This document shows, in pieces, positions 1 to 63,200 of a DNA stretch of 64,000 nt. The DNA lies in assembly GCA_014871385.1 (NCBI GenBank), contig CM026421.1, forward strand, positions 11,297,128-11,361,127, read 5' to 3'. The stretch's first letter is position 1; each line of letters opens with the position of its first letter. The position numbers were made by a program, and so were the translations under genes. The notes beneath the pieces were generated by a model. It was not told where the DNA came from. It did no database searches and was given only the letters and a program-made list of their open reading frames with translations. The DNA comes from Ceratodon purpureus (lineage: Eukaryota; Streptophyta; Bryopsida; Pseudoditrichales; Ditrichaceae).

Positions 1-228
1 CATACGAAACAACAATATTATGTCCAATTTTGCCACAAAATTTGTAGTGATTGTCTACAAAAGTCACCATGCTGTCCTCTATGTGAAAATATTGAGAATC
101 TTGATTTTGCAAAGCATACAAAATTTATCTTTGATACATCTATCACAAAAGATATTGAAATAACCAGTTTACAAAATTTTCATGATACTTTCCAGAAATT
201 ACATTGTTTTTTTACAAAAAATGAGTGA
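1..228 (+). CDS. C-terminal end of a RING-type zinc finger coding segment (partial, 5' end outside window)
   Basis: Frame 1 is open from the first base to a TGA at 226-228. Its start encodes H-x2-C-x2-C, a short loop, then C-C-P-L-C, which is the second half of a compact RING finger of the H-x2-C-x2-C...C-P-x-C type seen in BOI/IAP-like ubiquitin ligases. The first zinc ligands would lie to the left of the window. The reading frame runs out exactly where the dioxygenase-like ORF begins in frame 2: the sequence ATGAGTGA at 221-228 holds a start and the stop together. The region around 205-235 is rich in T and A homopolymers, so the two ORFs may be one RING-dioxygenase gene split by a one-base indel, or joined by an intron I could not place. 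RING assignment is moderate because only half the domain is present. Confidence 0.5.
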   Translation, partial: HTKQQYYVQFCHKICSDCLQKSPCCPLCENIENLDFAKHTKFIFDTSITKDIEITSLQNFHDTFQKLHCFFTKNE

Positions 229-1336
229 AAAAAACAAGAGGAAGATGTCTTTTTCATACAAAATTCTTCAATGTATATTGGTGGAAAAAGGACATCTTGA
301 ATTATCTATTCTCAAGCAATTTGACATAAAAACAAACATGAGAATTGTCATTAGTTACACAAGCATTCCATCAAATAAAAATAAACTGGGAGCACCATAT
401 TGGGAAAATAAAAAGTTTGAAAAGGCATGGCAAAATGTTTATCAAGACAATCATCTTATACCAACAACATCTACTGCTTTATTACTATTAGATGGAAATA
501 AAGTATTGAATGATAAAATATTAAATTCAAGTGATTTATCACTCAATCATGTTTTACTTATTTATATTCCTGAAATATGGAATAATGATGTGGTTGCATA
601 TCAAAGCACATTAGCTCAAGCAGACATATATTATGAAACTGCTCCTTTTGAGGGAAAATCTAATCAAGAAGACCCAAAAAGAGGCTCTTATAAGTCTGTA
701 GGCCATGGGTATATAGCACATGGAGGAATAGACTCAAGAGGAAATGTGGTACCATATGATAGAAAAAACATGTCTGAGAGCACAAAACTTGCTTTCAGGC
801 GCATTGGGGATTCTGTTGCATCTAAGATATGGAAGGCATTGGATTTATTTGGACATCCAGTTAAAGAATATTTTACAAATCAATTACAAGCTATAAATTG
901 TATCGCGATTGGATTAGATTCGTATCCAACACAAGTGCATCAATTACACATGTCCAAGAATTCTTTTATAAAGCCACACATTGATAAATTGGATTTTGAT
1001 TGCTCTTTTGTATGTTGGTTTATTGAAGGATATCCCAAAGGAGGTGAATTTGGAATTTTTCAACATTGTATGAAACTTGAGAATAATAAGGGAGCAGGTG
1101 TATTTGTATTCAGCAAATATGTTAGCCATGGAACATTACAATTTGATTCCAATTCATTATCAGCAACTAATTTTAAGATCGGATGTGCCTTGGTTAACAA
1201 AGAAGCGATTTGTACTCGAGTTAAAAATCAGCTTCAAAGTGAAAATCCAATCACTTGGAAACATATCCCGTACATAAGTTATATTGATACTGGAAATTGT
1301 GAAAGTCAGAATGTAAATGAAAATGATAATGTGTAA
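182..1336 (+). CDS. 2-oxoglutarate/Fe(II)-dependent dioxygenase-like protein
   Basis: An uninterrupted 384-codon ORF with AT-rich codon use. The C-terminal half has the double-stranded beta-helix signature of 2OG-Fe(II) oxygenases: an H-x-D pair at residues 266 and 268 (in K-P-H-I-D-K) and a distal His at 316 (in V-S-H-G-T-L), followed by candidate 2OG-binding Arg residues further on. The glycine-rich strand before the distal His (G-G-E-F-G-I-F) also fits. The arrangement resembles nucleic-acid-modifying members such as TET/JBP or AlkB-like proteins, but I cannot choose between them. The N-terminal 180 residues are unrecognised. The real start is uncertain: Met1 at 182 and Met14 at 221 are possible, and the protein may continue an upstream RING reading frame after a frame change. 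It lies at the window edge, next to a GC-rich block of gene fragments. Confidence 0.6.
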   Translation: MILSRNYIVFLQKMSEKNKRKMSFSYKILQCILVEKGHLELSILKQFDIKTNMRIVISYTSIPSNKNKLGAPYWENKKFEKAWQNVYQDNHLIPTTSTALLLLDGNKVLNDKILNSSDLSLNHVLLIYIPEIWNNDVVAYQSTLAQADIYYETAPFEGKSNQEDPKRGSYKSVGHGYIAHGGIDSRGNVVPYDRKNMSESTKLAFRRIGDSVASKIWKALDLFGHPVKEYFTNQLQAINCIAIGLDSYPTQVHQLHMSKNSFIKPHIDKLDFDCSFVCWFIEGYPKGGEFGIFQHCMKLENNKGAGVFVFSKYVSHGTLQFDSNSLSATNFKIGCALVNKEAICTRVKNQLQSENPITWKHIPYISYIDTGNCESQNVNENDNV

Positions 1337-1436
1337 ATTTCTTAGAATTACTTGATTTGAGTGTAAAGTAATTAATTTGTAATAGATTAATTACTTCGTT
1401 GTATTTACAACCCTTTTTGTATATTTTTTTTAATTT

Positions 1437-1451
1437 AATAAAAACAATAAA
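1437..1451 (+). terminator. Polyadenylation signals of the dioxygenase-like gene
   Basis: Two AATAAA hexamers (1437-1442 and 1446-1451) lie about 100 bases after the stop codon at 1336 in a T/A-rich 3' region. This supports the ORF being the last exon of a transcribed gene. Confidence 0.5.
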
Positions 1452-1744
1452 TATTTGTAACTCAGTATCTTGTCCAATTTATTTAGATACAGGTAATATA
1501 AACAATTTTGAAACAAACAATATGAGCCAAGTCAGATATTTGGCCGTTGAACACTTGTGATTCACAAGTTGACCCATCACTCAACCTTGTACACCCACAC
1601 AAAATTGGTTGCAACCATTTCAAATTCATTCAATACACAACTAATTACAAAGTATGATTACCAAGCATGGAAATAAGTGATTATTAACCCCGGGTAAATA
1701 TGCAATCTTTAATTTATGCAAGTCAGTAGCACTGTCCTCAGTGA

Positions 1745-2337
1745 GCCTTTCTGCAGTAAACCCAGTTACAGAATTATGACGAAGTGAGGCCCATGAACAG
1801 AGTTTTTGATGTCAACTACACCATCAGCACACACAAAAAGGCAATAACCGAATCATAGTGTGCTCACGAACATGGGGGCAGCATAGATTAACTATTACTA
1901 ATCCTGACTTTGAGGATTCAACTTGAAGAGCCCTCTACAAATTCCTAGCAAGCACAAATAGCCCGCGAATGCATCACGGCGAATCCCAGAACAGACAAAG
2001 CTTCAGACCTAGGACAGTATTTGAGCTTGCTTATACGAGTGAGCAAACAAACATACACACGGAGGCCAAGAATATTCAAAACAGAACAAGTATGCACAAA
2101 TAGTCATCTTGTCGTTTTTGCAATAAACGCAGTTACAGAATTGTGATGAAGTGAAACCCATGTTCAAATCAAGACGGTGTCAACTACATCTCCACCATCA
2201 GCAGACAGTAAAAGGCAGTAACAGAATCATAGTGTGCTCACAGACATGGGGGCATCAAAGATGAACTATTTCTATTCGTGACTTCAAGGATTCAACTCGA
2301 AGAGCCCTCTACAAATTCCTAGCAAGCACAAATAACC
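1745..2337. repeat. Diverged tandem duplication, period about 372 bp
   Basis: Two copies of about 215 bp (about 1745-1963 and 2115-2337) share long matching stretches, for example the run ending in CTACAAATTCCTAGCAAGCA in both. The spacing between matching points is about 370 bp. The copies differ by substitutions and small indels, so the duplication is not recent. It lies at the left edge of the GC-richer block, just after the 3' region of the dioxygenase gene. I see no LTR hallmarks (TG...CA ends, primer-binding site) at the copies. Confidence 0.7.
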
Positions 2338-5284
2338 ATTAACTAATCAGACAGTGAACACGCTTTCAGGAATGAAACACTGTAAGTTACAAACCACTCA
2401 CGCACCCATTCATCACCAACAGGATGCCCACGTAAGAGTTCCTATCAGAGGAAACATTTTTAAAAGCCATATAATTTACAGAAATGAACACCATATCTGA
2501 AGAAGAGTGTTAGGGTCACCACCACGTTCTAGCATTCAGAAGCGCGTCTAGAAGCTCCATAGTTCTTGGCACCGAAGCCGTGTCCTTCCTATCCCTGTTC
2601 TGCAGCCCCACCAATCCAACTCTTGTGCCATGTACCCTGGCTCGATGCATTAGGAAGGGCAGCAGAATTTGATTGCGGACCCGAGGTCGTCACGGGCGTG
2701 TATATCAGGGGATAAGGCACGCGGGAATCCGCCATGAGGTTCATGAGCTCCACGCTACATGCCACGGTCCACCGCCAGGCCGCACCGGGCTTCGTCAGAC
2801 CGTGTTATATGTGTACTCTTCCGAATGTAGAAGCCGCGGCGCCTAGCACGCTCAACTTCTAGAAGCCATGGCCGCAGCTCCTCCGGGCTCTGTGGTGCGA
2901 CGGAGACTAAGCACACAACCGCCGTGGTCCTCTTGGATCGCGCCTGACGCAACCTACCCATCCGGACTGAGGATTCCTGATCCCACACCCCAACTGAAGC
3001 TCGTCTGATATGACTACTGCGCCCACGAAACCCAAGCGTTGCGTTCACTGGGCGTGTCCGTCGTAGCACCTCACCGCAGAGAAAAAGGGACAACCTTGAA
3101 TAAGCGTCCTCACTTGCTCCGTATCTCAAGAAAAACACTGGCAAGTGCAAAAGATCTATCATGCAGGTAAGTACTAATCGCGCGTGGGAAGCGTACATCC
3201 ATTCTCGTGAGGGCCCTCTTCAGGCTAGATACCCCGTACACATTTCCCAATGTGTAGATATGGCGTTCACTGTACGCGGTCACAGCACTTCCTGGACCAC
3301 ACCGATTCCGCTGACTTCAGCAGTCTTGGTACTGTCTGCAATTCATAGAGGTTGCAAATCTTATCAAACGGTCACATTCCTAATTACCCCCAATGCAGAG
3401 TAACTGAGTTTTTCCTTCTTTCATCTGTTTCCGAGAAGGGAATAGCGAAAAGTGAGAAGTTCTTATTATAGTACAGACGACCACATTAAATCCGTTCGAC
3501 AATATTGTCAATGCTGCAATAACAGTGTTGCAGAAAACACTGAAGATCCATACTTACTTCTTTAACTTGACGCCACGTCAGATCTTGTCCTTCTGTGAAA
3601 ACTCCTCCACGAATGCGACCGCATTCTGGCTGTCCGAACGTGGACGTCATGAATTGATAACCCAACTCATGGAAATTCAAGTATCTTCCGTGGCTTCCTG
3701 AACATGCAGCAAATACCCTAAGCATTCTGTACCTAAGAGAATCTAGCAATGACAGTGGGAGATGGCTGGATGCCCCTCGTGAATGCGTCTTTATCTGCCA
3801 CATGAAGGGCTGAAGCCTCTGTCTGCAAACCAGAAACGTTGAGGGTCATGTAATGTACTCATCCAGAACAAATGGCGTCCACATGAACTCACAGATTACG
3901 CACCCAACACGACTCTCTTATATTGAATTGAACAAACTCCTGCACAAATGTAAAGCATGACTGAATACAATCACAGGGCTTCGTTCAGAGAATGAGTTCA
4001 ACCCGACCTGCACTATCATATTCAATGAAAAAGCATTCGAAGATGCGGATCAGACTTCCAACAGAAATGGCCAGGGAATCACCTCTACACGGAGCTCGAT
4101 GCCAGGCTCTTCCTTGAGATATTCCGACGGGACGTCTGCTCTAACTCCCTCCCTCACATTAGGGTGGCGTTCTATGGCAATTCATTGTTCGCTCACTTCC
4201 ATTGCACAGATTTCTGAATAAGCATGAACAGAGGAGTTTCTGCAGTCAAATGATATACCAGAAAGCTGTGAATTCGCCTCGAATCAACAATGAAAACCAA
4301 GCCTGTAAGTCATTTCCGAACATCAAATTCCCAGCCTCTGAGTCCTCCATAGAATGACGTGAAGAAAGTCTGGCTGTGTCACTCTCGACGGCGACGGACT
4401 TCCTAAAGGACGCTCCTCCGAATCCAGTTGAACACTACTCGCAAGACCTACCTGCGATTTCTGTAGGCCTAGCAGAGGACGACTAGAAGACAATTGTCAG
4501 TAGTCGAAGGATCCTTCACAAACTGATGAATGCCTGGTTTGCACAGAAATAAAAACAAATCCGTCTTTCTATATCCGAAAAAATAACCCACTGAAAACAG
4601 AAACATACGTAGTGAACTTGCCGTCGTGAGCAGGCTCCACAGGCTACAGCCCAGTCGATGGGGCATACAGGAACTCACTTCCTCGTTAGCCAACCCGCAC
4701 CTGGCAGCCAAAACTAATAGATGGTCTCATTCATTGCAAATTGACACACCTAAGGGATGTACCATGCTCCATGTTGTGGCACATGGAGAGCATCAGTGAG
4801 CATCCCTATTGAACTCGGGGCTTCTTCATACTCTTCATTTCAATTTCCAAGTCCGTCTACAGGACACACCTATGTCAGGTGCCCAGACATTGAAGTGATG
4901 CAGGAACTACCGATGTTTCTGCGGACATCCAGCGCGATAGAAAGGGTTACAATCAGACATAACCACGCGGGTGGCACGTCGTACACAGCACACTCATTAC
5001 TCATATCGTAAAAACTTCCCAATGATCATATTTACACATCTCAAAATTAAGCATAGTTCCGTACATACACAATAGCAGTCAGCCGTGTGGCCATAACCCA
5101 CACAGATATGTACTGTTACCATTGAAGGGGACAAACACCCCTCAGAATATCCTAGGTCCAAAATTCGCCACGCAAAGTGAACAGTCTAAATATCACCCGC
5201 ATCGTTGGACACGCACGAATGCGCTCAAAATTTGATATCAAAATCTGCCACTGATCTCACGGCCCTAGCCACCTCCAATGTGCT
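2338..5284. other. GC-richer stretch without a recognised gene
   Basis: The composition resembles the gene-fragment region to its right. The longest open frame is on the minus strand at 2755-3198 (147 codons, ATG start, rich in Arg and Leu, ending near D-R-G-M). It could be decayed coding sequence but matches nothing I know and has no clear splice context. No repeats, RNA genes or domain motifs were recognised. Confidence 0.4.
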
Positions 5285-6201
5285 TTACGATGTACTCCCA
5301 TCGCGCTTGCGCTTGGCATGCTTGCCTCCGCGACCTCTCCCCTTCCCTGCATCTGCGACCGCAGCTGGTGCCCGGAATTTCTCCTGCACGCCAATTAATG
5401 CCAACGGCTTCATGTTGCTTACCTTGTCGACCCTTGCCACGCCCTGCGTGGCTCGCCCACGCCCTGAAACTACCTTCTTCGCTCCTGCCACACCCACATC
5501 TTCACTTCGAGTCCCCGCTTGAGAAGCCGGCGCTGGACACATTGTATTCCGCAGGGCCGCTTTCCTGGACGTTCTCAGAGAGATCACATCTTGAGTTGAG
5601 GACTTCTTAGTAGCTGGAGGTTCTGGAGGCACAGCCTGACTTTCTGACTGCACCATGTCCTTGTCAAGTCCAAGGGAATCCGTTGTAATCGCAATTTCGT
5701 GCTCTGGACCTCCGTCGGTAGAAGACGACGTGGCCCGTTGAATTTCCTGACTTATAGTAGTGTCCACAGGCATTTTCCCAGTCCACGGTGGTTGAATCTC
5801 CTGCACCTCAGGAACCCCCTCCGAGCTGTCAAGGAATACCGTCTCGGGAAGTGAAGTGGTCACAGCCTTATCAGCTCCACCTTCAGGTGTTGCATGGGAA
5901 GCCTTCTGCGCCTGGGTGAAGCACACCTCCTCAGTCTCCGCGAAGAGTAGGCTCTCATCAAATGTGTTTGCCCCCCCAACCACTGCCCTCGGGGGACTCC
6001 CAGACTTACTTACCGCCGCTGGGGTTCTGTACGCCACACCACCCGAACGTACTCCTGGGCCTTCAATGGGTACCCTTCCAGCACTTGACGAAGGCGTCTT
6101 CGAACTTCCCAAAACACGTGCTTTCACATGCCCTGAAGACGGCGTCAATACACTCTTCTGTTTCATCGAAGTTGGAGTCCCAGAAGCGGACTCCACATTA
6201 A
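5285..6201 (-). CDS. Putative last exon of an unknown Ser/Thr/Pro-rich protein with a basic tail
   Basis: The frame is open for about 305 codons on the minus strand and begins after a plausible splice acceptor (GTGTAG at about 6202-6207). No ATG is needed because this looks like an internal or last exon. The product is low-complexity: rich in Ser, Thr, Pro, Ala and Gly in the first two thirds, with an acidic Glu/Asp middle. It ends in a Lys/Arg/Gly tail (G-K-G-R-G-R-G-G-K-H-A-K-R-K-R) just before the stop, which would suit nuclear or nucleic-acid binding. It lies downstream of, and on the same strand as, the coiled-coil/Cys-His exon at 7371-8170, so the two may belong to one gene. I do not recognise the family. 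Confidence 0.4.
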
Positions 6202-7370
6202 CTACACACGCAATCACACAAAATGTTTATACATGTTCAGTTCGCTGTCCTTATCACAATTACAAATGATACAACCTAGATCTACTCAAGGAAAAGGGCA
6301 ATTCACATTCTCTCGGGTATGTGAAAGTGAATTAGTGAGAAAAAACGGTTATTACAGTGGACCACCGAAAGGTCCACCTTCAAGTTCATCCCCAGTGCTT
6401 CCGCAGTGACAGCACGTTGAAAGTGCTTCAGCAATCACGTACAGTAATCGGGCAGTTCCCAAAGTTAGTCGAAGTACATGTACAGTTTCGCTACTCTAAT
6501 TCATTAGAAGTCACCGTGAAGAGCAAGTGCGTCGTGGTAGACAGTGAAGTTGGAGCGGTACCCCGGAAGCGATTACTACGTAAAAGTGCTGGACAAGTAA
6601 CAGTTTACTGGAAAGATCACGAAGCGAAGTGTCGCTCACACCCAATGCCAGTGGTATTCAGGCCCGGGCAACCCTTCGCCTAAGGAGGGCACTCTGCAAA
6701 GCACTTCTACACGAGTAAAGTGCCAAGCACGGGCTGCATCAGTACAAGCTTCCCCCATGGAAGTCCTTGCCACGGCAGTGGCCTCATAAGCTGCACATAT
6801 GAACCACTGCACCTTCCCTTCAGCTGTCCCCACCATGTAAGTGACGAATGAAGTACTTGAGATAGCCTGCGGTGATGTATGGTTACTGAACCGAGAAAAC
6901 CAGAGGATGAACATCCGAGGACGCACTGGCAAAGCACTGAATCCCTCGAGCAGTACATAGGACGTCCTTGGAATATCACATCCGCACCATTCAGCAACGA
7001 AAGGTAAAACTAAGTGCCACAGGCCATTGTCTACGCGGAAAATAAGAAAGTTAAATTGAACACCAAATTAACAGTACTTTCAACCTTTCACTGCTACGAA
7101 AGTCGCACGCATAAATTCAGAACCTCCTGTAAGACCTCGCGCTCAGTGAAAGTGACTACGGGGACATACAATTCTAAAATCTCCAGGAACAGTGTCTTCC
7201 AGAACTGGAATCAGAAGACGGCAAAGAACACCATCACATTAAGGACACAAACATCCCAATAACTAAGACAGAAGTAATACAAATAAATTACTGCAGCCAT
7301 TTCGTAGGAATCCTAAACCTCCGAACTTGAAGCTAGAACACACTTGACCAGGGCAGACATCGGAACTTAC
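6202..7370. other. Intron-like or intergenic stretch between two minus-strand exons
   Basis: Short open frames occur on both strands (for example plus 6357-6683) but none carries a known motif. If the flanking exons belong to one gene, this interval is an intron: a GTAAGT donor follows the upstream exon at 7370 and an acceptor precedes 6201. Confidence 0.35.
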
Positions 7371-8170
7371 AGTTAGTAGATGCGGCATGAGACACATGAC
7401 CAGCGTCATGCCTATTGCTTCGACTCGCATGGCCCTCCATCTTTGGAACCCGAAGTAAAGGTAACCGCACCTGATTCGCTCCAAAGCTATCCAACCAGTC
7501 CTGGCAGAATTCGAGCCCACAAGCATAGCTGGCACACCTTCTTCTCCCGTCACTCAACCAAGCAGCAAGACAGAAGTGGTGATAGCAACATCCACAGTCC
7601 GCAACGGAGATGTTGTGACACTGGAAGTTGAAGTCACAAACTGGACAATTCGATATGTAGATAACCTGACTTCGCCCCACCGCAGGAACACTGGGATTCC
7701 GAAGTGGGATGGGTGTGGTCCCCATGCCAGATCCTGCAGCCATCATCTGCACCTGCTCAGTCAACTTTGCCACCCACGTCTCCAGGCGAGTGGATGCCAC
7801 TCCTCTGAGGTGGATTTCACGCTCTACCTTCCGGAGATCACTCTGAATCCCCTCCTGTTCTAGTTTCAGCTGCTCTGTCCGGGCACTCTCCCTGCTCAAT
7901 ATGTGAAGTCCAAATTCCAAATCCTTATCAAGCACCCTGAGCTGCTCGTCCTCCACTGCACTAGTCTCTCCAATGACCACGTCTTCATTTTCCCCTGAAT
8001 CCGCAGCCATTTTAATGGAATTGAAATGCTCCACCAGACTGTCACGACGGCTTCTGATGTTGGCGCAGCTTAGCTCCTCCTCTCGTAGAGACTTCTGACG
8101 TTCAGCTAGCGCTCCGTCGATGCTCTTGCACTGCTGCTGGAGCTCCTTGCATCGGTGTTCTAGCACGTCT
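7371..8170 (-). CDS. Exon encoding coiled coil plus Cys/His-rich RING-like zinc-binding region
   Basis: A minus-strand frame of about 266 codons is bounded by a good acceptor (TTGTAG, ending at 8171) and a good donor (GTAAGTTCC from 7370). The first 140 residues are charged heptad-like sequence (many Glu, Gln, Arg, Leu) and probably form a coiled coil. About 40 residues later there is a Cys/His-rich cluster: C-P-V-C, then C-G-C-C-Y-H-H-F-C, then C-A-S-Y-A-C-G-L-E-F-C. This spacing suggests a RING-like or other cross-brace zinc finger, followed by W-L-D-S-F-G. A coiled coil plus RING would fit an E3 ubiquitin ligase, but the family is not recognised, so this is inference. No frameshift is visible inside the exon, unlike the GH9 and NRPA1 relics nearby. 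Confidence 0.5.
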
Positions 8171-8522
8171 CTACAAGTCAAATGCCAGTCATACAGATTA
8201 GAAACTCGCTTAATTGCACAGAAGTCGCATCTTTTGTAAGATCACACATAACCAGTGCCCCCCGGACCTTCCGTCCCAGGCCCCCAGATTAGATTAAAAC
8301 CCGAACCCACGACAGTTCATCATTGTTATTGATGTTCATTCTCACGAGGTCACCGTATTAGCCATCAACAAGTCCGCAGGCGAGCCTGTGGAGTGCACAC
8401 AACGAGTGGAACCCTTGACGTAGATTTACACGATTTTCCTCACTTATTGTCCTCTAGAATTCAAGCGCCAACGGCCCAACGTCGCTCCCACGTCGTTAAC
8501 AGTTAAAGTCACCAATAACCAC

Positions 8523-9069
8523 CTAAACCGAATTAAAGTTTGTTGTGCCTCTAACAGTGCAAGAGAGACCGACATGTATCTTCGTGGTCTGATTGGAAGC
8601 TCTTGATAGAATACATGTCCCAATCAAAAAAAATTCGTTCTCTGACCAAGAAACAAGGAGATCAGGCACTGCCCGGTCAGCAAGAGTCAAGAGTCGTCTC
8701 TGTTTGTCCAAGAAATCCACAAAATAATCCAATGGAGCTCCTTTGCAGATAAACTATTCTTGGAATGATCTGATTCAGTCGACGTCCCCGATGCTCTTGA
8801 TCCTTCCGGGCATTTACACTGGCGCTTCGAATGTAGTCTGCAAGCTTCTCCAGATCGCAGTCATAGATCCGCTCCTGGGCTTCAATTTCCATGCAGCATG
8901 GACCTTCCACCTTCTGAGGCTCTCGGCTCTCTGTGTGCATCGAGCTTATCCGAGAAACTTTGTGCCTGAGGTTACCACTTGACATTGGATATCCATATCT
9001 ACCGCTGTCACTTGGCTCTTCCCAGATGTTCTCTTCATACGGGCTTTGAGTGGAGCACGTCGTGTCCAT
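8523..9069 (-). other. Possible first exon(s) of an unknown gene, frame disturbed
   Basis: An ATG at 9069 opens a 130-codon minus-strand frame containing an acidic, hydrophilic stretch. A second minus-strand frame (8523-8732) overlaps its end and continues with coding-like sequence (D-Y-F-V-D-F-L-D-K-Q-R-R-L-L). The change of frame near 8730 suggests an indel or a missed splice. It lies upstream of the coiled-coil/RING-like exon on the same strand and could be its 5' part. No family is recognised. Confidence 0.25.
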
Positions 9070-9243
9070 GCTGGTGTGTATAGGTCGATGCTAATCGCTG
9101 ATGTGGATAAGAATCTGCGGACACCATCAATACAGCAAGGACTCTTAAATAGATGTTTAGCGAGAGTTGCAGTGTATAATAGCTAATGAGATTTAACAAG
9201 AAATTTCCGCACCAATCAGTGTCAAGTTGTACTAAAAACTCAC

Positions 9244-11760
9244 CTGGTTTTTCCAGGAAGCAGAGGGCAGGTCATGATAGGCGTAGAGATATCTGCTGAG
9301 GCTGTCATTAAAATTTCTCGCAATCGAGGAATACCAAGTGTCACATTCATTTCTCCTCGCCCTGCAAAATGAAAAGTATTCAATCTGTACATCATGTTTA
9401 AAAGAAGAAATCCAACTTCGTTTATGATACTTCATAAATGAAGAGGACTAAGAACCTGAGAATAGCATAAGAGTATTCAAGTAACAAGATGGCCAAGTCT
9501 ACCAGGGAAAACAAAACCTTTAGACAACAACAAGAACTTCGTCATATGATTGCACTAAAAATGCGAGAATAGCACTGAGGGCTTCGCATCTCTAATCTTT
9601 AAATCCTAGCAGCTTTTAATACAAGAGAAGAAGATGAGACTCAGATACGTACGTCATCTGAGTCGAGGGTTCGCCAATTGACTGTGGAGCAAGACATCCA
9701 ACGGGTTCACCAAGTTGCGCAAGACTAGAAGCATATTTTAGCGACATCAAGTATCTGAAGTCCTCCCTTTCTTTGTGCTTTATTAGGTGCAATCTATTCT
9801 TCTCTTCCTCAGATGACTTACTGCTGGCAATGAATCCTTCTGCCTTGTCATCGAAAGCCATAGACATACCCGCAAGTGATCCTCCTCCTGGCTTGTTATC
9901 ATCGTCATGTTCAACATCTTTGTGTCTGTGTTTCTTGTTACGTTTTCTAGGCCGTTCCATCTAATCTTTGCCAAGCCGTAACGAGACGAGGTCTTTCTTC
10001 TGCAAAATGTGCATAAACACACCAATTGCATCAAGGAAACTGCGAAATTGATATGACATTCGGTACATCTATACATGATTGCTTAATAGCATGTAAGATT
10101 TCTACCTGCTTTGGAAAAAGGCGGTATTAAATAATTGCAAAAGCACATCAAATCATTTCTGTACTCTAACTGGGTTTTCTCAAAGCTTGGATATTCCCAA
10201 AGATAGCGAATAACTATTCGAACTACTCTGCTAAAAGAAATCGGGAGTGTTGTGCTTACAACTGCTAGGAGCTGAAATTTCAACAGATGGCCTGTCTTTG
10301 TCACATCAACACCATCCTCTCCGTAACGGAACTGCACTATTGAACCGTCAGAGTCACGGACAGTATAATCGTAGTGTACATTCAAAAATTTCAAATTCTT
10401 CATAAGGCATCTCTGTAAGTAAGTTGTAACCACTTCGAGAGGTTTTGACAGCCGTATCCTTCAGTCTGTATCACAAAGAGTTAGCATTAGACCATAAGTA
10501 TTCAAACAATATTACCAAAAATTTGTTAACACTTGTGCGAATCTGAAAATTGCAATCGGCCAGCGTCTGAAGCCCAGTACGCAAACTATATACTGAACAT
10601 AGATACGCCTTTCAACCAATCTGCTGACGCTATTGTTCGCTCATGCGTTCGTGAGTTTGGTCTGATATAGAATTCCAGACCACTACGAAGACATATGGAC
10701 AAATAGAAAAACCACAAATTCAAAAGCATTGCATCAAAATGAATAGTATCTGAAAGAATTGGGGAGGCAATGTTCAGTACCCATCTCGGTCTGCCACAGA
10801 ATGGAATTTATATTCCTGTGGACGAAGACCACTCAAAAACCGCTCTCCAATAAAGCCACCAGCACGTGCACTTGCGTCCCAAGGAGGAAAACACGGCAAA
10901 CTCTTCCCTGAACTCATACGAGGCACACGCTTGCCTTCAAGCTCCTGTTGTCCAAGCAATGATGGGAATTGTGTGAAGTTGACCTGCAACAAAATCACGA
11001 TGATGCGTGAGTTAACAGTTGAACATCCAGAGTAACATAGAAACGCAGGAAGAAATAGAAGCTAGACCGTAACAGTCATTACGGAATAGCCAGAAATATG
11101 TAAACACGATCACATAGTGGAGAATTGCATACGCGCGATCGGCAACAGTAGCTGCAAGAGACAGAATACATTAGAGGCTCAGGGCCTTACCAGCCCTCCC
11201 TTGGCACCGGTAATGGTCATCAGAGAAAGACAATTCGCGGGGAAAGGTTTCATCAGGCCCGGAGGGAAGATCGTACTGTTGATATCCAAAGTAATGAGCT
11301 TGAGGGCACTCGTCAGAAGCATATCAAGCCGTTTGGTAGCAGCCTCTCCTAATTTACTTTGCATTCGCTTTTCCACTTCATCCCTGATCTCCTCCATATT
11401 AAACTCTGCTTCTATCAAACCATCAAATGTTATAGAAAGGCACACATGATAGCATTGCTGTGTAACTATGTAAATACTTCCAGAGTAAGATCCTCGTTGA
11501 ATAAATCCAATACAAAAGACGATTGAAGCATCTGTACCATACAGTTCGCTAAACTTCTGTAACCATGAAGATTTGTGGCGTTTTATCAAAGATATGATTA
11601 AGACACGGATGAAGAGTTTACCTCCTTCCTCGTCAACACATGCGAAACGCGCATTCATTTTGTCCCCTAGATTGTCAGTTTCTGTCAACTTCTGGCGCCT
11701 CGCTTTCTCAGCCTTAGGAATTAAACGGAGGTCTCCAAATCCACAAGTGAACCCATGCAT
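9244..11760 (-). pseudogene. NRPA1: RNA polymerase I largest subunit (NRPA1/RPA190), internal fragment
   Basis: Six minus-strand exons can be read: 11760-11622, 11411-11191, 10983-10781, 10465-10260, 9960-9653 and 9384-9244. They have GT-AG borders, and phases agree except at the break described below. Diagnostic Pol I segments are [50 protein letters not shown] and Y-G-E-D-G-V-D-V. The trigger-loop region follows: [29 protein letters not shown]. The N-terminal two thirds, including the catalytic D-F-D-G-D loop, and the C-terminal exons are absent. The fragment begins and ends at exon borders. A 7-bp insertion near 10417-10427 shifts the frame inside the S-R-S-G-Y...L-Q-R-C-L motif, so it cannot encode a working subunit. 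Confidence 0.9.
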
Positions 11761-12053
11761 CTGTTTCCCATAACAACAGAGATGCAAGCAGTATCATTTT
11801 TTCTATGCACTTAGATGTAGCAGAATAAAAACTTCTACTGGGCTGGAAAAATCCAACCACTTCCCACATCATCACCGTTCTAGATACTGTGCACTCCAAG
11901 TGAATTTGGTCAGAAAACGGTAACAAAGGCGTGCCACTCATCACCGTTTAACTCAAACAGGGCATGCAAGAAATGTCCCTGAACAAGACTAGTTGGTGAT
12001 TACGCACAGCCCTAAACAACAGAGTGAGCCTTGAAGAGTGTTTCCTCTTATAC

Positions 12054-13974
12054 CTGTTTTTGTGCAATTGTGACAAGCTGGGAGGGCGTGATCTTCTTGT
12101 ATCCAAAAGTGACACTTGCTTGTGCTCTACCTATAGATCTGGCGTAGCTTGTGAGCAGAAAAGCAGCTGACGATACAGCCTGCATGTTAGTGGCCGAAGT
12201 CTGCATCTGGAGCCCTCCTGAACACGGCATAACAAATTTTCCTCAATGTTGTTAGAATCTATCTGCGAAGAAATGTAGTTATCATGTACTGTCGACTGCG
12301 AAATGCAATGACTAGTGGCTTAAATAAACGTTGCAAAACCTGAAATTAGAGCAAAGAGTTGAGACTCGCTGGAAATATGAACTTGACTTTTCCGCTTCTT
12401 TTTATGTAGCAAGCAAATAACACTTTTTTTTTGTCAGGCTGCAAAACCATGAGTCCCGTACCTGGAGTATAGGGAGTTGTCGAAGTCGGACTAATGGAAG
12501 AAGGCCATACTTGACAAATATAGCCGTCTGCACGATCTTTGTAACCTTGGAGCCCTTGTATTCCTGTTGAGAGGTGCTGACAGATATATTTGGGGTTTAT
12601 TTTCTTTCTCAATCTGCACTTCATATGTAGTTGCGATGTCACAGCCTGACCTGGACATAGATCTTCATGCAAGAGCCGAACCATTTTGCATATATATGAA
12701 GCATAGTAAGGAATTCTAACCTGAGCACTGTTGATTTGAGCTCCTGCGTACTTGTTATCCCAGTTGAACGAATTTACTGTGACAGTTGCGCCCCCTAAGG
12801 TTTAGCATTGTTGGTAAGAAACTGGAGATAACGATCCATTTTGGGAGCCTTGTACAACCATGCGGCTCCCCAAAGTATTTCATCCTGAGAGTCACACCCC
12901 AAGAATTCAAGTTTGTCAGAATTCAAGTTTGTAGAATCAGCAGGAACTAGTCCATGGTGCAAAAACAAATAAACAGATACTTTTGGAAGGTTTACAGAAT
13001 CTTGTCAAAATGAAGGGGGTTGTAGGATGAGTGCTTGGCTTACGTTGAATCCAGAGTAGGAACAGTAGAAGGGGCATACAGCTGCAGCGAGGCTGTCACT
13101 ATACTTGCCTCGATACTGGTCAGCAAAATCGAAAATCTGCGAACAGCAATCCAATCATTTTCATTCTCAACATTAGGCAAAGTTTAGAAAGTTTATGGAC
13201 ATTGAACTATCTTAAAAATGTTATTTTCTGTTTCTAAATGCTCGTCTGCATGTTTGCACTAGACTGGAACGAGAATTCAACCATGGAATGAGCTGAATGA
13301 GGAAGGACGTCCGGACCACTTACTCTCCTCGCGCTCCTCAGAAGTTTGTTGGAGTATTCAGTATCAACACGGCGGAAAGCAATGGAAGCTGCGGCAAACG
13401 CTGCAGCAGTCTCTGCCGCGACATCAGATCCTGGATTTTTGGCATCCACTTTGTAGGTGGTGCGAGGCGCTTTCCATATCCTCAGGCCTTTCCCAGCAAC
13501 TATGATCAGCATTTGGTTCCCCGACCTGAGTTAAGACACACCAAACAGTGCTCTATATTCGTCATGGAGTATAGTATTTCATTGATCATCCTTCATCTGT
13601 CTGCATATTTCTGCTTCTGTAATACAACCTCCAGACACTTCTGTCAGGTGCCGATCGAAACCAGACCCGGGACTGTCTTGTTTTATATTGATAATCTATA
13701 TAATTCTAGCAGTGAAATTCTAGCATAATTGTAAGGCATCGTTCATGAAACCAACATAGAGACTGACCTGCACCCAGATTTCGTTCGCGGCGGTGTAGGC
13801 CTTCAAGAGATAATCTGTCCCCCAGCACATATTGTTCAATGCATCTTGCAGCTGGCCGGTTGACTGGAAATTATCGCCGGATTCCACAACATTCCAGGCA
13901 AGGGTAGTGATGGTAAAAGCCATTGGCAACCCGAATTTGACGTTGTCTCCGGCATCGTACTTGGCGAGCAGATC
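12054..13974 (-). pseudogene. Endo-1,4-beta-glucanase, glycoside hydrolase family 9, internal fragment
   Basis: Six minus-strand exons: 13974-13768, 13525-13324, 13136-13044, 12884-12721, about 12600-12462 and 12217-12054. Family 9 motifs are K-Y-D-A-G-D-N-V-K-F-G-L-P-M-A-F (catalytic-base Asp region), [33 protein letters not shown] and N-W-D-N-K-Y-A-G-A-Q. The signal-peptide/first exon and the last exon(s) with the conserved His and the catalytic Asp/Glu signature are missing, again at exon borders. Damage: one extra base at about 13467-13473 just after E-D-M, an in-frame TAG at 12795-12797 and a frame change right after it. It is therefore a cell-wall hydrolase relic, upstream of and on the same strand as the NRPA1 fragment. 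Confidence 0.9.
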
Positions 13975-14862
13975 CTAGCTGAGATGGTAAGTCTTTGACA
14001 TTGAAGATTGCAGGTGATCCTCGACTACTTCCATAGGTGGAAGTTAAATTTCGCCCCTTCCCGGGTGAAGGGGAGGTTGAGGTGGAAGTCCTTGTGAACT
14101 TAGGAGAAGAGCCTCCGGATTTTAAAGTAGATCAGGGAGTTTGTGACGCGGCCGGCGAATTCATTGATGGGTGTCTGTGCAGGCGTTGTCTTCGTACACC
14201 GTACCTTTGAACTAAAGAGAATACTTCGGGGAATGTGGTCTTATTCAAACCAAGCATCGTGGCACGAAGCCGAATATATTTAAGGGTTTCTTTGGACCTT
14301 TAACGTCGCTCAAGAACTGAACACGGCGACCACAAAAACAGAAGCCACCCGAAACCAAATAGATAGACATTCGTAACCTCCACAGCACATGTTTTCAATT
14401 CATAGAGGACTACAGTTCCACCGCAAGTCCTACTCCCGTATGAACCATCCATCCATAGTAGGCATGACAGTAACCCTGCTCTCATTCCTTAAGCTTCACA
14501 GGGGACTTCTTCAGCGTCGTTAAGACATGTGCAGTTAATCAGTGCACTTATATCGCCCGAAAATGATCACTGAAGCAGTCAATCTAGAAAGTAGAACATA
14601 GAATTTGCATACTCAATAACTTCAGACCAAGGTACGCGAGGGGACACCAAAAAAAAACAAACCCTAAACGTAGTAACGTTGGCGATGCAGGAACGTATGC
14701 CACATTCACCACAACGAATCTGCATGGTTGTGGAACCTTGAAACCAACATCGACTGACTGTCCTAAGGTGCACTGTAACCATACCGAGCAACTTCCGAAC
14801 ATCCTAACCCCATGGTACAAATATGAAGACCCAGGTTCAGAAAAATAGGTAAAGTCAGGCAC
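13975..14862. other. Stretch with no recognised gene
   Basis: Between the GH9 relic and the next minus-strand ORF. Only short open frames are present (minus 14300-14485, 14579-14862), without known motifs. No GH9 N-terminal or signal-peptide exon was found here, which supports truncation of that gene. Confidence 0.4.
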
Positions 14863-15540
14863 TCACAGCTTCGGACCTATCCCGGCGCAATCAGTCTCGG
14901 CATCTCCTAGCATCTCAACCACCGCCATGCTCTGATCCTCCGACCACGAAGTTCGCTCACAGGTTGCTCCACCTTGACGTCGGTCTACACAAAGGTTTGC
15001 ACCGTGCCCTACCTGTCCCGGACAGTGAATTCCCTGAAGCTCTTCCCACTTCGTGTGTAGAGCCTCCTCCACTCTGCCGTCCTTCTGCCACGAAATGTAC
15101 TGTTTCCGACAGACGTCGTGTGCAAATTTTGCCCAATTGATCTTGGCCTTCCCGTCCCTCTCCGCCAACCAACTCCTTAGAAAAAAGCGCGCAAATTCCT
15201 TGTTCGGAGGTGCATGGTTGTACATAGCATGGTACTGCTGCCAGATTTCTCCACACTCCTTCTCTGTGATAAACTCATTTGCCACAACTCGGATCCCACT
15301 GCCTCCTTTGTTTGGAAACACTCTCTTGAAGTGAGCCTCGCTAACATGTGACGTCCCGCATTCTGTCTTCGCACAGATGCCGCTGTCCTCTAACTTCAGG
15401 TTCTCGGCAAAGTCTTCAACAGTCCACCGACACCGTTGGTGGAGCCCTTTTGCGAACTTGATCCTCTCAACATTTTTCCTGTTCAATTCAGGATCAGGTT
15501 TCGTGAGCACGCCCACCACCTCAGCCTTTGCAGAATCCAT
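14863..15540 (-). CDS. Unrecognised 225-codon open reading frame
   Basis: A single uninterrupted minus-strand frame starting at an ATG (15540); an in-frame GTG lies two codons earlier. The product is hydrophilic, without a signal peptide or membrane segment. Aromatic and charged residues are regularly spaced (W-T-V-E-D-F-A-E-N, F-I-T-E-K-E-C-G-E-I-W-Q-Q-Y, F-F-L-R-S-W-L-A-E, W-A-K-F-A-H-D-V), suggesting a helical fold. Four Cys residues in the first third (C-R-W, C-A-K-T-E-C-G-T) do not make a recognisable finger. It sits between the OPR and GH9 fragments on the same strand. Telomere-like AGGGTTTAGGGT motifs lie 117-130 and about 600 bases upstream. Function unknown; it could also be a fragment of a repetitive, element-borne gene. 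Confidence 0.45.
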   Translation of the reverse strand: MDSAKAEVVGVLTKPDPELNRKNVERIKFAKGLHQRCRWTVEDFAENLKLEDSGICAKTECGTSHVSEAHFKRVFPNKGGSGIRVVANEFITEKECGEIWQQYHAMYNHAPPNKEFARFFLRSWLAERDGKAKINWAKFAHDVCRKQYISWQKDGRVEEALHTKWEELQGIHCPGQVGHGANLCVDRRQGGATCERTSWSEDQSMAVVEMLGDAETDCAGIGPKL

Positions 15541-15599
15541 CCACACGCAAGTCCTACGATCAGGTTACTCTGTAACAGCAAGTCCACCTGTGCAATCGC

Positions 15600-16136
15600 G
15601 AAGCCCTAAACCTAAGGACCCTGAACCCTGTTCTGTCGAATGCTTGGAAATTTGACACCCTAAACCCTCGAAGCAAGGTCTGCTCCAACAGAATTCCCTC
15701 GCAAACTAAATCCCCGGCCACTCACCCCCTCAGACACAGGATCAACAAACTTTCGGAAAGAAAAATTTCGCACTTTCTCCCAAAGCCTCGCAGGCAACGT
15801 AATCGACCAACCAGACTATCTCGATGCAACTCACTTACTCTCGGACTCCAAAGTGTCAAGACAGTGAAGTGCACCATAACTGACTGTGAAGGTTCTATTT
15901 CGCTTGACCTATCCTCAAGCTGACTCCGTAGACCCTCTCCAACATAAATGACGCCGCAACGCACCTGCATGCATCAACTCCCCTGCCTTGGGAAAAGGTG
16001 TTGATCCGGTTGAAGGGTAGAATTGGCTGCGGAGCATTCACAACACTTCCTTCCGGGATCCTCCACAATGAAGACGTTTAACTCGACTCCTGTGTCCACC
16101 CTTAAACCCTTCCAACAAGTGTCACCCTAAACCCTA
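15600..16136. promoter_or_regulatory. Cluster of telo-box-like CCCTAAACCCT motifs
   Basis: Motifs ACCCTAAACCCT at about 15657-15668 and 16124-16135, with degenerate relatives at 15604-15630 (CCCTAAACC, CCTGAACCCTG) and 16099-16110 (CCCTTAAACCC). On the minus strand these read AGGGTTTAGGG and lie upstream of the ORF starting at 15540. Telo-boxes are known plant promoter elements. The motifs are also close to plant-type telomere repeats, so an old interstitial telomere insertion is the alternative. Confidence 0.35.
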
Positions 16137-16301
16137 CTAGCTTCTGTGGCAGTTGAACAGCCCATCGCGTTCCCAAACGTTCCCACAGTACAAAAACAGG
16201 GCACTTTGAATTCACTGTAAATTGGTCACATTTTGCACTTTGTGGTCCACTTTATTGTGCTTCCCCCCAAGGAGGAGCTCTGGACGAAATTAAGTATTTA
16301 C

Positions 16302-17355
16302 CTGCTTCTAGAGCATTTTTTGCCCCAATTCTGAAGTAGTCAATAATCTGTGGAATCTCGTCGGTTCGAAGTGGTCGAGGGGTGGAGTACATTTGCTTGG
16401 AGCTTTTGCCGTCGGCATCTACGAGAGTGGCTCTCCATGGCATGGGCACCGGCATGCTCGTTGATGAGATCGGTGCCGCATTCCCAGGTTGCAACTCTGC
16501 TTCCATAAAAACCAACTCAACCCTTCAATTATTCGGACTATTCAACTCTTTCGAACAAAGGATTACCTCAGTCTATTGCGGTAACTTTGTCATGAACTCT
16601 TCTCAAGGTAGACACGAGCTCTTTACCTGTGTGGGAAGCTCGGCCGACATGCCACAGTTGCAGGAAAAACGTAGCACCGATGTTGTGCACCGCTGTCGTG
16701 ATCGGTTTCCATGACTCGATCTGTTCATTCGTGTAGATCCCAGCAGTGTTCATAAACCTGATATTACATAACCGAAATGGCTGGCTTAATTTCACGGGTT
16801 AATTTATCACAGAAGCGATGGACATTCTAGACCAAAAATTTAGTTCGATTGGAAACATTCAACTAATGTATGTGCTGGAGAGCATACCCGTGACCATCTG
16901 CAGCCACGCAAACGCCTTCGGAAATGAGGAGGCCACCTTCGGAGGCTCTTTGGGAGTAGTATTCATTCATCAGTGAAGTGGCCAAGGTGTCCCGTGCTCG
17001 GCATCGTGTCATGGGAGCCAACACCACCCTGCAACAGCATCACCATCCAATTCACATACTTCATTAAACTCGGGTGAATAAACTTGTGTCCAGTAGCGTT
17101 CTTTCTAGTCGCGTAGCTCTTGTAATCCTATCATTGTGTTGAATTTCAACATTGGTCTCTTAAAGACACAACTTCTTCCTTGAGCTATTCGGTAAATGAA
17201 TCAACAAATATGAGTTAACTACAAAGCATCAATTACCTGTGCTTCAGCTGATGGAGCCCGATTTGAATTGGTTTCATCAGCTCCATTCCAGCTGATTGCT
17301 CCTTACCATCATCTCCCATGGCCTTCTTCGACTCTGCTCTGATCACAGTCACCAT
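16302..17355 (-). pseudogene. OPR: 12-oxophytodienoate reductase-like (old yellow enzyme family), 5' four exons only
   Basis: Four minus-strand exons join in phase: 17355-17237, 17028-16888, 16757-16627 and 16496-16302. They start at an ATG and give about 196 residues of a family that is usually about 370-400. Motifs are P-I-Q-I-G near the N-terminus, L-A-P-M-T-R-C-R-A, E-Y-Y-S-Q-R-A-S-E-G-G-L-L-I-S-E-G, A-G-I-Y-T-N-E-Q-I-E-S-W-K-P-I, F-L-Q-L-W-H-V-G-R-A-S-H and A-A-P-I-S-S-T-S. The second half, with the substrate-binding H-x2-H pair, the catalytic Tyr and most FMN contacts, is absent: after the donor at 16301 no further OPR exon is found down to 14.9 kb. No frameshift or stop occurs in the four exons. 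OPRs are flavin enzymes that reduce enone double bonds, some of them in jasmonate synthesis; this copy cannot do so. Confidence 0.88.
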
Positions 17356-60248: not shown

Positions 60249-63200
60249 CTAAGTTCTTCAACGCTCCAATACAAAATATCCACATTTGTTCAAAACATTG
60301 GCATTAATTGAATCTTCTAATTTTTTTGAAAATTAAATGGTAAAATTATTCAAATTAATCATGTATTTACACATGTATGTATATATTAGAAATCAAAATC
60401 AATTTTTAAAAATAAAGTAAAACCTGCGAATAGTAGCTTCTCCAGCAAAAAACAATCGCCCATTTCCAACACTCTCTGCCAATACATCATAATCATCTCC
60501 TGATGCTTCTACGGCCACATTTGAATAAGAACCGTAACTCAAGAAATCACTTCCCCATCTTGTGCAAACAGTTTGAATTGGATTTGGAACATCAATACCT
60601 CGAGGTTCGTATATGCCTACACATGTGATCATAATGTAATAAGCTATTATAATCTTATTGAAAAACCTACATTTATTGATTATGATTGATATGAAAACAT
60701 GTCTCTTATTTAAATAGAACCTTTAGTTAATTTTTCATTTTAAAATTTATTATTTACTATAAAAAATATTGTTGATTAAATATTGTAATCAATGTTTTAA
60801 AGATTATAGCACTTAATATTTTCTTTCAAATTTACATAATAGTGTATTTTATTTTATAAGCATATATTTTATATATTACATTGAATAATTTTTTTTTATG
60901 AAAATTAATTATTATATCCATGATGATTCTATAACATACTTTTAACAATGCATTATTGACAACTTTGATTTTTAAACCCATAAATTCATTTCAAATGATG
61001 TACCTCTCAAAACAACCATTACACGCATTACTGCTTGTAACGGAGGTGTTTTTTCAAACTCAATAGCAGCTTCTCCAGCAACTAATGCTAACAAGAGAGG
61101 TCCTTCAGATACCGTTGCATAACTATAAAATAAAAAATATTCACCTCTCTTATTGGGATCTTCAGCTAAGTGTCCAAACATATCAAGCTCAGAGCCCCAA
61201 AATACCTTTGGAAAAAGCATCACAACTTTATTTAATAATCCAAATCCTAATTTTTTTATTGCATCAAGCTTTCTTTGAGGTAGCTCAGGTTCAAATTTAA
61301 GCATATTTCTTTGTAAAACTCCTAAAGGAATTGTACAAAGAGCCATGTCGGCTTCATAAATTTCTTCACCTACACATACTTTTACACCTTCATTTCCATA
61401 TTTGATTGCATGAACGGTTTTACCATATTTAATTGGAATGTCTTCGGCCAATGCATTAATGAGTTTTACATTACCTCCAGGTAAAAAACAATGATCACCA
61501 CCCATTTCATAAGGGTCATCTTGATCCCAGAATGCTAATGACAACTTTGTAAGAAGACCAGCATTTGCATACTCTAAGTTAGCTAAATGCCAATCATATA
61601 ATTCACGTTCTTCCTTTGTTTTTCCTACCCCTTCTAATTGGCGTAAAGTTTCAAGTGTAGCCCCCAAAGAAATGCTATCAGCCGCTTTTTCCATGTCTTC
61701 TCGCCACTTGCTTGCACCATCCAACAACTCATTAAATTGTGTTTCTACTTTAAAATCAACATTTTCTTTAACGGGGTGTCCATTTGGTTGATACAAAGGG
61801 CACTTGTCTCGGATTTTGTGCAATGGTAAATTCAATTGTTGAGCCAAAACTCCTAATGGGTTACCTTCAATGCCTGTTATGACACTTCCACCTAAATCTG
61901 CAGATGCTGTAAATCCATCTCCTTTCATTTTTTTGGTGTATACACGCCCACCGGGTCGTTGTCTTCCTTCTAGTACTAAAACTTTGTGTCCAAAAGCTAT
62001 AAGTTGTCTTGCTGCACCTAAACCAGCTAATCCAGCTCCTATAATAATTATTGAAGATTTATTAGTTTCTATAGACTTGATAGCTTTAATAGCAGGAGCT
62101 ACACCAAAGTTGATGTATCCATGCATTAAAAGAAATTTATACGCTGGTGAAACAAGATTTCTATGTTGTGCTTTAACAGATTCAAGAACAGTATTTTGAT
62201 GAAGGTAAACATTAACATTTTCCCTCCATTTTGAAAGTATGTGATTACGTACAATAATATAATTTGTTTGTTCAGAACTTCCGATATGGTTTACTACACC
62301 CGCTTCAACTTCCTCTTCTGTTAAAGATTCTTTTGGAAATCCAATGGCTGCAGCTAAAGTGGCTTCAACATCAAATGTTTTATCTATTGTTGTCTTTTTC
62401 CTTCGTTGTCGAACTTGTGTTGATATTGTTTTTATATCTTGTTTAACTTTTGAATTCAACAAAAAATCATTAGATGTTAATTGTTGTCCAAGGTGCATTT
62501 GAGAACGTATCCTTCTTTGAGTTATTTGTTCAATGAAATCTTGTTGTAATGTATTCTCTTCCCTTTTCCTCTTCTTAGATATCATGTTAACTTCAAGTTT
62601 AGAGTTGATATCATTTTTAGTTACATCACCTATAAAAATACAAGTTGTGTTTTTTTATAAACAACATGCATAATTCTTAAACACTAAGCTTTATTGCTTA
62701 GTCTTTTCTAAAGTAAATATAACAAAATATAAAGAGATGTGAGTTATAATTAACCTAAAAAATGAAATATGTATGAATTTATAGAAATATTAACAAAACA
62801 TCCAACAACTATATAAAAAACACAAATTTTTTACTTTATCAATATCAAAATGAAAATAATATTTTCAATGCCAATAAATTTCTATAATTGTTTTCATAAT
62901 GTTCTATTATATTAATTATATATTTCACATACCATCATGATTTTCTAAATGTTGGATTGCCATGTTGAAAGCTTTGTTTTCAGCATTTTTTTCTTGTTGA
63001 GTTGTTCTTGATTTGACAATATTTTTGAAATCCTTTTTTAATCTATTAGGATTGTTAATAGCGGAGACACGTGTCATAATGGTCTTTTCTTTGTTGATGG
63101 TCCTTTTAACGTTGGCATCATTTAGAATGAATGGTCTTTTGTCTTTGATAGTGTCGACGTTCTCATTTGTATTCAATGTTACTTTCATTTTTGTTCTTGA

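Follow-up and report, generated by a model that had tools for sequence, protein, structure and literature searches.

A 64,000-nucleotide stretch of the genome of the moss Ceratodon purpureus (C1:11297128-11361127, below called the window) very probably contains the right-hand part of a giant cut-and-paste transposon, which carries captured pieces of an RNA polymerase largest-subunit gene and of a GH9 cellulase gene and has its right end in intron 4 of a 12-oxophytodienoate reductase-like (OPR) gene. The transposon has terminal inverted repeats (TIRs). Its copy in the window, copy A, covers positions 1-16268, no strand being assigned to it, as judged from a terminus common to several copies and from colinearity with two of them, E and F. 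A preliminary description of the sequence had placed the OPR, GH9 and polymerase fragments in one captured array. The three minus-strand fragments are real, and their introns and splice sites (judged by eye) are kept, but they do not form a single train, since the element ends at position 16268, between OPR and the rest.

Termini and copies of the transposon

The right terminus lies at positions 16239-16268 on the minus strand, where it reads GGGGGGAAGCACAATAAAGTGGACCACAAA, and the same end is found in the window and in five other copies in the 362-Mb genome searched (151 contigs). These are copies B (C8:11.29 Mb), C (C13:11.65 Mb), D (C3:21.03 Mb), E (C8:6.05 Mb) and F (C3:15.86 Mb), all of which were compared together with their flanks. 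In this six-copy comparison the sequence is nearly identical up to GTGCTTCCCCCC and then diverges; the final shared base is window position 16268, and the flanks beyond it are unrelated, their first bases being A, T, G, A, G and A. Dispersed copies with one fixed end in unrelated surroundings, as expected of a TIR cut-and-paste transposon, are thus found in six cases out of six. A genome search with window positions 14000-17000, in which the best 40 of 1344 candidates were scored and some copies gave two matches, returned at least 67 matches, which is a lower bound; 41 of the 66 that are not the window itself stop at window positions 16265-16272 (2266-2273 of the query).

Both ends can be seen in copy E. 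Its termini, GGGGGG..CCCCCC, are inverted repeats of 27 bp with one mismatch, lie 36.1 kb apart and are flanked on both sides by GTGG, a candidate 4-bp target duplication. Beside copy D lies a short unit, about 770 bp long, that has both termini as well; its flanks (GTCT and ATCT) differ by one mismatch. Element termini, as anticipated in the preliminary description, do exist in the form of the inverted ends of copy E and the common right end at 16268, but they are not the ends of a Helitron or a Pack-MULE.

Copies A and B separated recently: across about 14.3 kb they show 23 substitutions and 22 gap columns. Copies C-F are 99.4-99.8% identical to one another, and copy A shows 94.9-95.0% identity with C, E and F and, by blocks, 93-95% with D. 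Copy E matches copy F across 33 kb. About 3 kb before the left terminus of E, copy F departs from it, so that one of the two, F or E, is truncated or rearranged in this part. Another copy, G (C9), is of the F type with a 16-kb internal deletion and a 7-base overlap. Further termini of the family are found about 0.15-1.1 kb from the right ends of C, D and G, which indicates that members insert next to each other.

Copy A extends to the left of the window. The stretch C1:11278287-11294231 is colinear with E and F and bears transposase-like exons. When the 20 kb to the left of the window are aligned with E, 4,033 columns show 95% and 10,321 columns 93% identity, and the first 87 bases of these 20 kb match E between its terminus and the shared part (88.5%). 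The left terminus of copy A is predicted near C1:11275.5k, where it is expected as the inverted GGGGGGAAGCACAATAAAG, and the length of the element is about 36-38 kb. Description of the repeat as a short, truncated element of 14.4 kb was rejected because the repeat continues leftward beyond the window. Copy B (C8:11300815-11306000) halts at a run of N at the equivalent of window position 1815. A piece with 98% identity, ending at the equivalent of position 1821, is found on the opposite strand at a distance of about 100 kb (C8:11399565-11400040), and the two are probably one element divided by a scaffolding gap.

Captured polymerase and GH9 segments

Two segments of host genes lie on the minus strand of copy A between two genes of the element, ORF282 and ORF227 (open reading frames, ORFs, described below). 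The fragment of an RNA polymerase largest-subunit gene, at positions 9119-11972, has kept its introns and is 95% identical to C2:17119633-17122476 over 2,854 bases. Pfam Rpb1 domain 5 is recognised in it at positions 9616-9960 (E 3.1e-9). This is the signature of an RNA polymerase largest subunit; the more specific name, Pol I (NRPA1), is that of the preliminary description. The GH9 cellulase fragment, at positions 11948-13959, likewise has kept its introns and is 94% identical to C12:11847879-11849894 over 2,013 bases, the GH9 match being recognised at about 12350-13959. The exon limits of both genes (six exons of the polymerase, four of GH9) were drawn by eye. A genome search with window positions 8300-14000 scored 33 of 33 candidates, and the follow-up search behind the C12 match scored 20 of 20. 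The transposon sequence that adjoins the two pieces within this query is seen at neither the C2 nor the C12 place, and these loci, on two other chromosomes, are candidate sources of the captured DNA. A second GH9-like locus lies beside the C12 place (C12:11854342-11856005, 71-81%). On the same strand of copy A, positions 8649-9122 are 85% identical to C5:10359277-10359738 (474 query bases) and are probably a third captured segment.

The interval between the two element genes is shorter in relatives of the transposon. Relative H (C7) has only about 2.4 kb between the equivalents of window positions 8650 and 14721; among the matches listed, none to the polymerase falls in that interval. H shares other parts of the element at 77-93% (one short stretch, window positions 8300-8650, at 70%). 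Among the matches listed for ORF282 (best 40 of 230 candidates scored) there are 22 diverged relatives at 70-76%, and in 18 of these 22 a relative of ORF227 follows 1.1-3.4 kb further on. In the window the spacing is 6.7 kb because the captured DNA lies between the two genes. For the polymerase and GH9 pieces, the idea of the preliminary description that a DNA transposon had captured segments of the genome is supported by intron-containing candidate sources at 94-95%, by a repeated unit with a common end and by relatives with a shorter gap. The parent genes that it had anticipated have candidates at C2 (95%) and C12 (94%) whose introns match as well.

In copies C and F, as displayed, the GH9 sequence runs on into what reads as its last exons; copies A and B have lost this part through a 1.9-kb deletion at window positions 11959-11973 relative to C-F, with a TTG overlap at both ends.

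Several further pieces of the same genes are found elsewhere. Copy A has a second GH9 segment to the left of the window (C1:11282339-11283249, L013; 926 columns, 90% to the GH9 region of E). It is situated between transposase-like ORFs two and three, a place at which E and F have a short piece only. Cargo thus seems to move within the transposon family. A match on C4 (C4:9002916-9003106) is 93% identical to a single GH9 exon (window positions 13769-13959) with no match to the flanking intron, and may be a second, exon-sized capture. C7:7404437-7405416 is 92% identical to window positions 10969-11972 and has the upper polymerase border, 11972, in common with the C2 source.

Decay and borders of the captured segments

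The captured exons diverge between copies A and C in the same way as the DNA around them. For the polymerase, divergence is 5.23% in exons and 5.18% in the rest of the segment; for GH9 it is 4.11% and 4.20%. The corresponding values for the element's own ORF227 and ORF282 are 2.63% and 3.77%. All four copies displayed (A, B, C and F) have a one-base frameshift in the GH9 fragment, and A and B have a second one there; a polymerase exon has a 7-bp duplication in A and B that is missing from C and F. As the captured exons diverge like introns and carry frameshifts, the cargo is read as passenger DNA in neutral decay.

The preliminary description had all fragments cut exactly at exon borders. This holds for the upper border of GH9 (13959/13960), which lies directly after an AG acceptor; the matches to the two C12 GH9 loci, to one C7 locus and to the single exon on C4 all stop at 13959. 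It nearly holds for the lower border of the polymerase (about 9119), which is 3 nt from the acceptor AG at 9116-9115 and overlaps the next piece by four bases. The upper polymerase border (11972) lies 209 nt inside an intron, and the border of OPR, which is the transposon end, lies 33 nt inside intron 4. A preference for acceptors in capture is only a suggestion. The short overlaps at the junctions would fit template switching guided by microhomology, a process that has been proposed for capture by Pack-TIR elements (PMC8277862).

The OPR gene at the right flank

OPR exons 1-4 and the first 33 bp of intron 4 occupy positions 16269-17355 on the minus strand, outside the mobile unit. The exons, at 17355-17237, 17028-16888, 16757-16627 and 16496-16302, make up one open frame of 586 nt, and a good splice donor follows exon 4, 33 bp from the transposon terminus. 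The spliced product of 195 amino acids matches residues 12-183 of a 402-residue OPR3 chain, and artemisinic aldehyde reductase, which belongs to that fold family too, scores slightly above OPR3. Copy B has unrelated DNA at the position of OPR. With the terminus placed before OPR, this puts OPR outside the mobile unit, and the candidate reading of OPR as cargo, and with it the claim that OPR had been captured together with the other fragments, was given up. The best reading is that OPR is a target gene which would have been interrupted in intron 4 by the transposon.

Genes of the transposon

The left part of copy F contains three transposase-like ORF stretches (L033:4898-5821, 6033-7232 and 8880-9683), and the same three are present in copy A at 95-96% protein identity. 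The first two are full or nearly so in copy A (308 and 399 residues). Between F and A, substitutions in these exons number 21, 17 and 55 at codon positions 1, 2 and 3 (p 3e-7), a pattern which indicates that the transposase-like gene has been under purifying selection. The motifs DFAENY, WSDG and HGKG..DG resemble, by eye, those of DDE/D transposases. To the left of the point where E and F part, an ORF at 1705-2316 of L033 has a sub-threshold match to an N6/N4 DNA methylase (24.7 bits, cut-off 26.7).

Two further ORFs of the row are the transposon family's own genes and no gene fragments. ORF227 (14863-15546, minus strand) adjoins the right terminus and is repeated across the genome; its substitutions between A and C number 2, 4 and 12 by codon position, biased towards the third. 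It has no Pfam or PHROG match at E up to 1 and NCBIfam matches far below the cut-off only. Its single-sequence AlphaFold model has a mean pLDDT of 45.7 and was not used. ORF282 (7333-8181, minus strand) appears by eye to have a coiled coil and a Cys/His RING-like stretch. Its best Pfam match is zf-ANAPC11 (E 0.62), the remaining library matches being below cut-off; the lowest E-values for the coiled coil, 0.0021 in NCBIfam and 0.0027 in PHROGs, reach no curated cut-off. The bias towards third positions is seen in both ORFs, which taken together have 11, 10 and 29 substitutions between A and C by codon position (p 0.0003).

Sequence of events and alternative explanations

By combining these observations, it is possible to propose an order of events. 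In the simplest order, an element of about 36-38 kb with G-rich termini and without cargo would have taken up intron-containing polymerase and GH9 segments at the DNA level, between ORF282 and ORF227, possibly by microhomology-driven template switching. Capture would have preceded the amplification of the copies seen, as C-F on the one hand and A and B on the other, and would have been followed by neutral decay of the captured pieces and by the 1.9-kb deletion in A and B. Insertion would generate a 4-bp target duplication. Copy A would have inserted into intron 4 of OPR, or its right end would at least sit there, leaving OPR exons 1-4 adjoining it on the same strand.

Several points weigh against this proposal. 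Among the six copies, only E provides the TIRs and the duplication, the latter as one 4-bp match. The left end of E is tied to the family only through the 87-bp match to A, as F diverges earlier. The C2 and C12 candidate sources may be incomplete genes. Relative H has a GH9-like piece of the second kind elsewhere (C7:3809232-3809732, 83%), so that H is free of cargo at the ORF282-ORF227 place only. The captured exons show a weak third-position excess between A and C (22, 23, 36; p 0.024), which leaves room for some constraint. The transposase-like ORFs have no match above cut-off in the profile libraries used (Pfam, NCBIfam and PHROGs), and their DDE character is judged by eye. The third transposase-like exon of copy A matches 193 of the 268 residues of the ORF in F; the gene of the window copy may thus be incomplete and copy A non-functional. 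Finally, a search of 84 kb of C1 with an OPR consensus as probe did not find exon 5 or any later exon of OPR. These exons could be to the left of the element or have been lost, or there may be another reason why OPR is a fragment. A position past the element's left end would make their absence from the 84 kb expected, though this is not proof.

The last point also speaks for another reading, in which the transposon is as described but was inserted into an older OPR copy, already truncated to exons 1-4, or into a second mobile unit that includes these exons. Members of the family adjoin each other elsewhere (C, D and G), which is a further point in its favour, but the four OPR exons have an open frame and good splice sites, and they end by insertion and not by decay. 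This reading is possible, though doubtful. An array captured by a Helitron or a Pack-MULE with OPR included, as the preliminary description proposed, would equally place host gene fragments with introns inside a mobile unit. Its other features are at odds with the sequence. The TC...CTRR ends of a Helitron are lacking: the terminus GTGCTTCCCCCC is not CTRR, and neither the 3' CTRR nor insertion between A and T is found at the six right ends or the ends of copy E, assessed without folding for a hairpin; the flanking bases A, T, G, A, G, A do not follow the A|T rule. Long TIRs and 9-bp duplications, as in Pack-MULEs, are not found in copy E, where the inverted terminus is about 27 bp and the candidate duplication 4 bp. 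The absence of a transposase gene that marks the empty "pack" type does not apply either, with transposase-like exons in the left part of copy A, in E and in F, and OPR lies outside the unit. Both identities, for which the ends were searched, were discarded, and the array is very unlikely. CACTA/EnSpm elements, marked by CACTA termini and a 3-bp duplication, do not fit the GGGGGG..CCCCCC ends either.

An assembly artefact, with junctions made from collapsed repeats, could be suspected from the unread N runs inside or next to copies B, C and D (three of six). No N run interrupts the examined stretches of copies A, E and F, and the cargo junctions recur in other copies, which makes such an artefact extremely unlikely. 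The idea that host genes are simply decaying in place, or that a segment was duplicated, with no transposon involved, takes its appeal from three plant gene fragments on one strand. It is practically negligible in view of a unit found on several chromosomes with one common end and unrelated flanks, its inverted termini and its transposase-like gene. The giant cut-and-paste transposon, with captured polymerase and GH9 pieces and its right end in the OPR intron, is thus the reading adopted here.

Comparison with known transposons

The nearest known case is Tgm-Express1, a soybean CACTA element of 5.7 kb with five gene fragments, located in intron 2 of F3H and reported to give chimeric splicing (PMC1947982). 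Both are DNA transposons that lie in an intron of a host gene and contain parts of several host genes, introns as well as exons. The moss element differs in its size of about 36-38 kb, the transposase-like gene inside it, the GGGGGG termini and the candidate 4-bp duplication. Pack-MULE, Pack-TYPE and Pack-TIR elements similarly have captured genomic segments between inverted termini and short overlaps at junctions, and Pack-TYPE elements are described as non-autonomous (PMC8277862; see also PMC8903248); the termini and the candidate duplication of the moss element are not MULE-like. With the giant eukaryotic transposons, as outlined in a review (PMC6431247), it shares a length of tens of kilobases and extra genes. 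For Polinton, Teratorn and Starship, the comparison made here is that of the profile searches.

Lanisha, which we take to be from the moss Ceratodon, consists of cut-and-paste elements, possibly of the same plant. It is a proposed EnSpm-like superfamily (Maumus, McDaniel and Carey 2020, as cited in PMC12730594), and is compared here by that description only. There the termini of its clade (CMCT) are mostly CA..TG, and C(2)C/H(3-4)H motifs are placed between the second D and the last E. The moss element has GGGGGG..CCCCCC termini, and inspection by eye showed no such motifs in its transposase-like frames.

Though large and unusual, the moss transposon exemplifies a known process, in which a TIR transposon takes up fragments of genes. 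Such uptake is known above all from Helitrons and from small, non-autonomous elements; here a family with a length of tens of kilobases keeps a constrained transposase-like gene and yet carries cargo from more than one gene. As candidate sources at about 95%, relatives without the cargo at that place and very young copies are present in one genome, the order and the breakpoints of capture become readable. Of the four borders, one coincides with a splice acceptor and another is 3 nt or less from one, which can be examined across the family. A bolder view would be that of an undescribed, giant and perhaps self-sufficient superfamily of moss transposons with G6 termini, a 4-bp duplication and a transposase absent from the profile libraries, which takes host segments preferentially at splice acceptors and brings them as ready-made exon cassettes into host introns. 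Both this mode of capture and the superfamily so characterised are unlikely.

Other features of the window

ORF310 (5285-6217, minus strand) has no insertion or deletion between A and C, E or F. It was rejected as a gene, as its substitutions against C (15, 22 and 23 by codon position) are without codon-position bias. ORF384 (182-1336, plus strand) is an AT-rich single-exon ORF with, by eye, an HxD...H pattern as in 2-oxoglutarate oxygenases, and without a Pfam, NCBIfam or PHROG match. It sits in a stretch missing from copies C-F and may be a separate cargo gene. The DNA beside it (1340-1963) recurs on C7 (93%), C8 (98%), and C6 and C12 (94%). A scan for tRNA genes found none. Far to the right of the transposon, positions 60972-62585 hold a single-exon, LSD1-like ORF in which a SWIRM domain (E 1.4e-15) and an amine oxidase domain (E 6.5e-55) are recognised.

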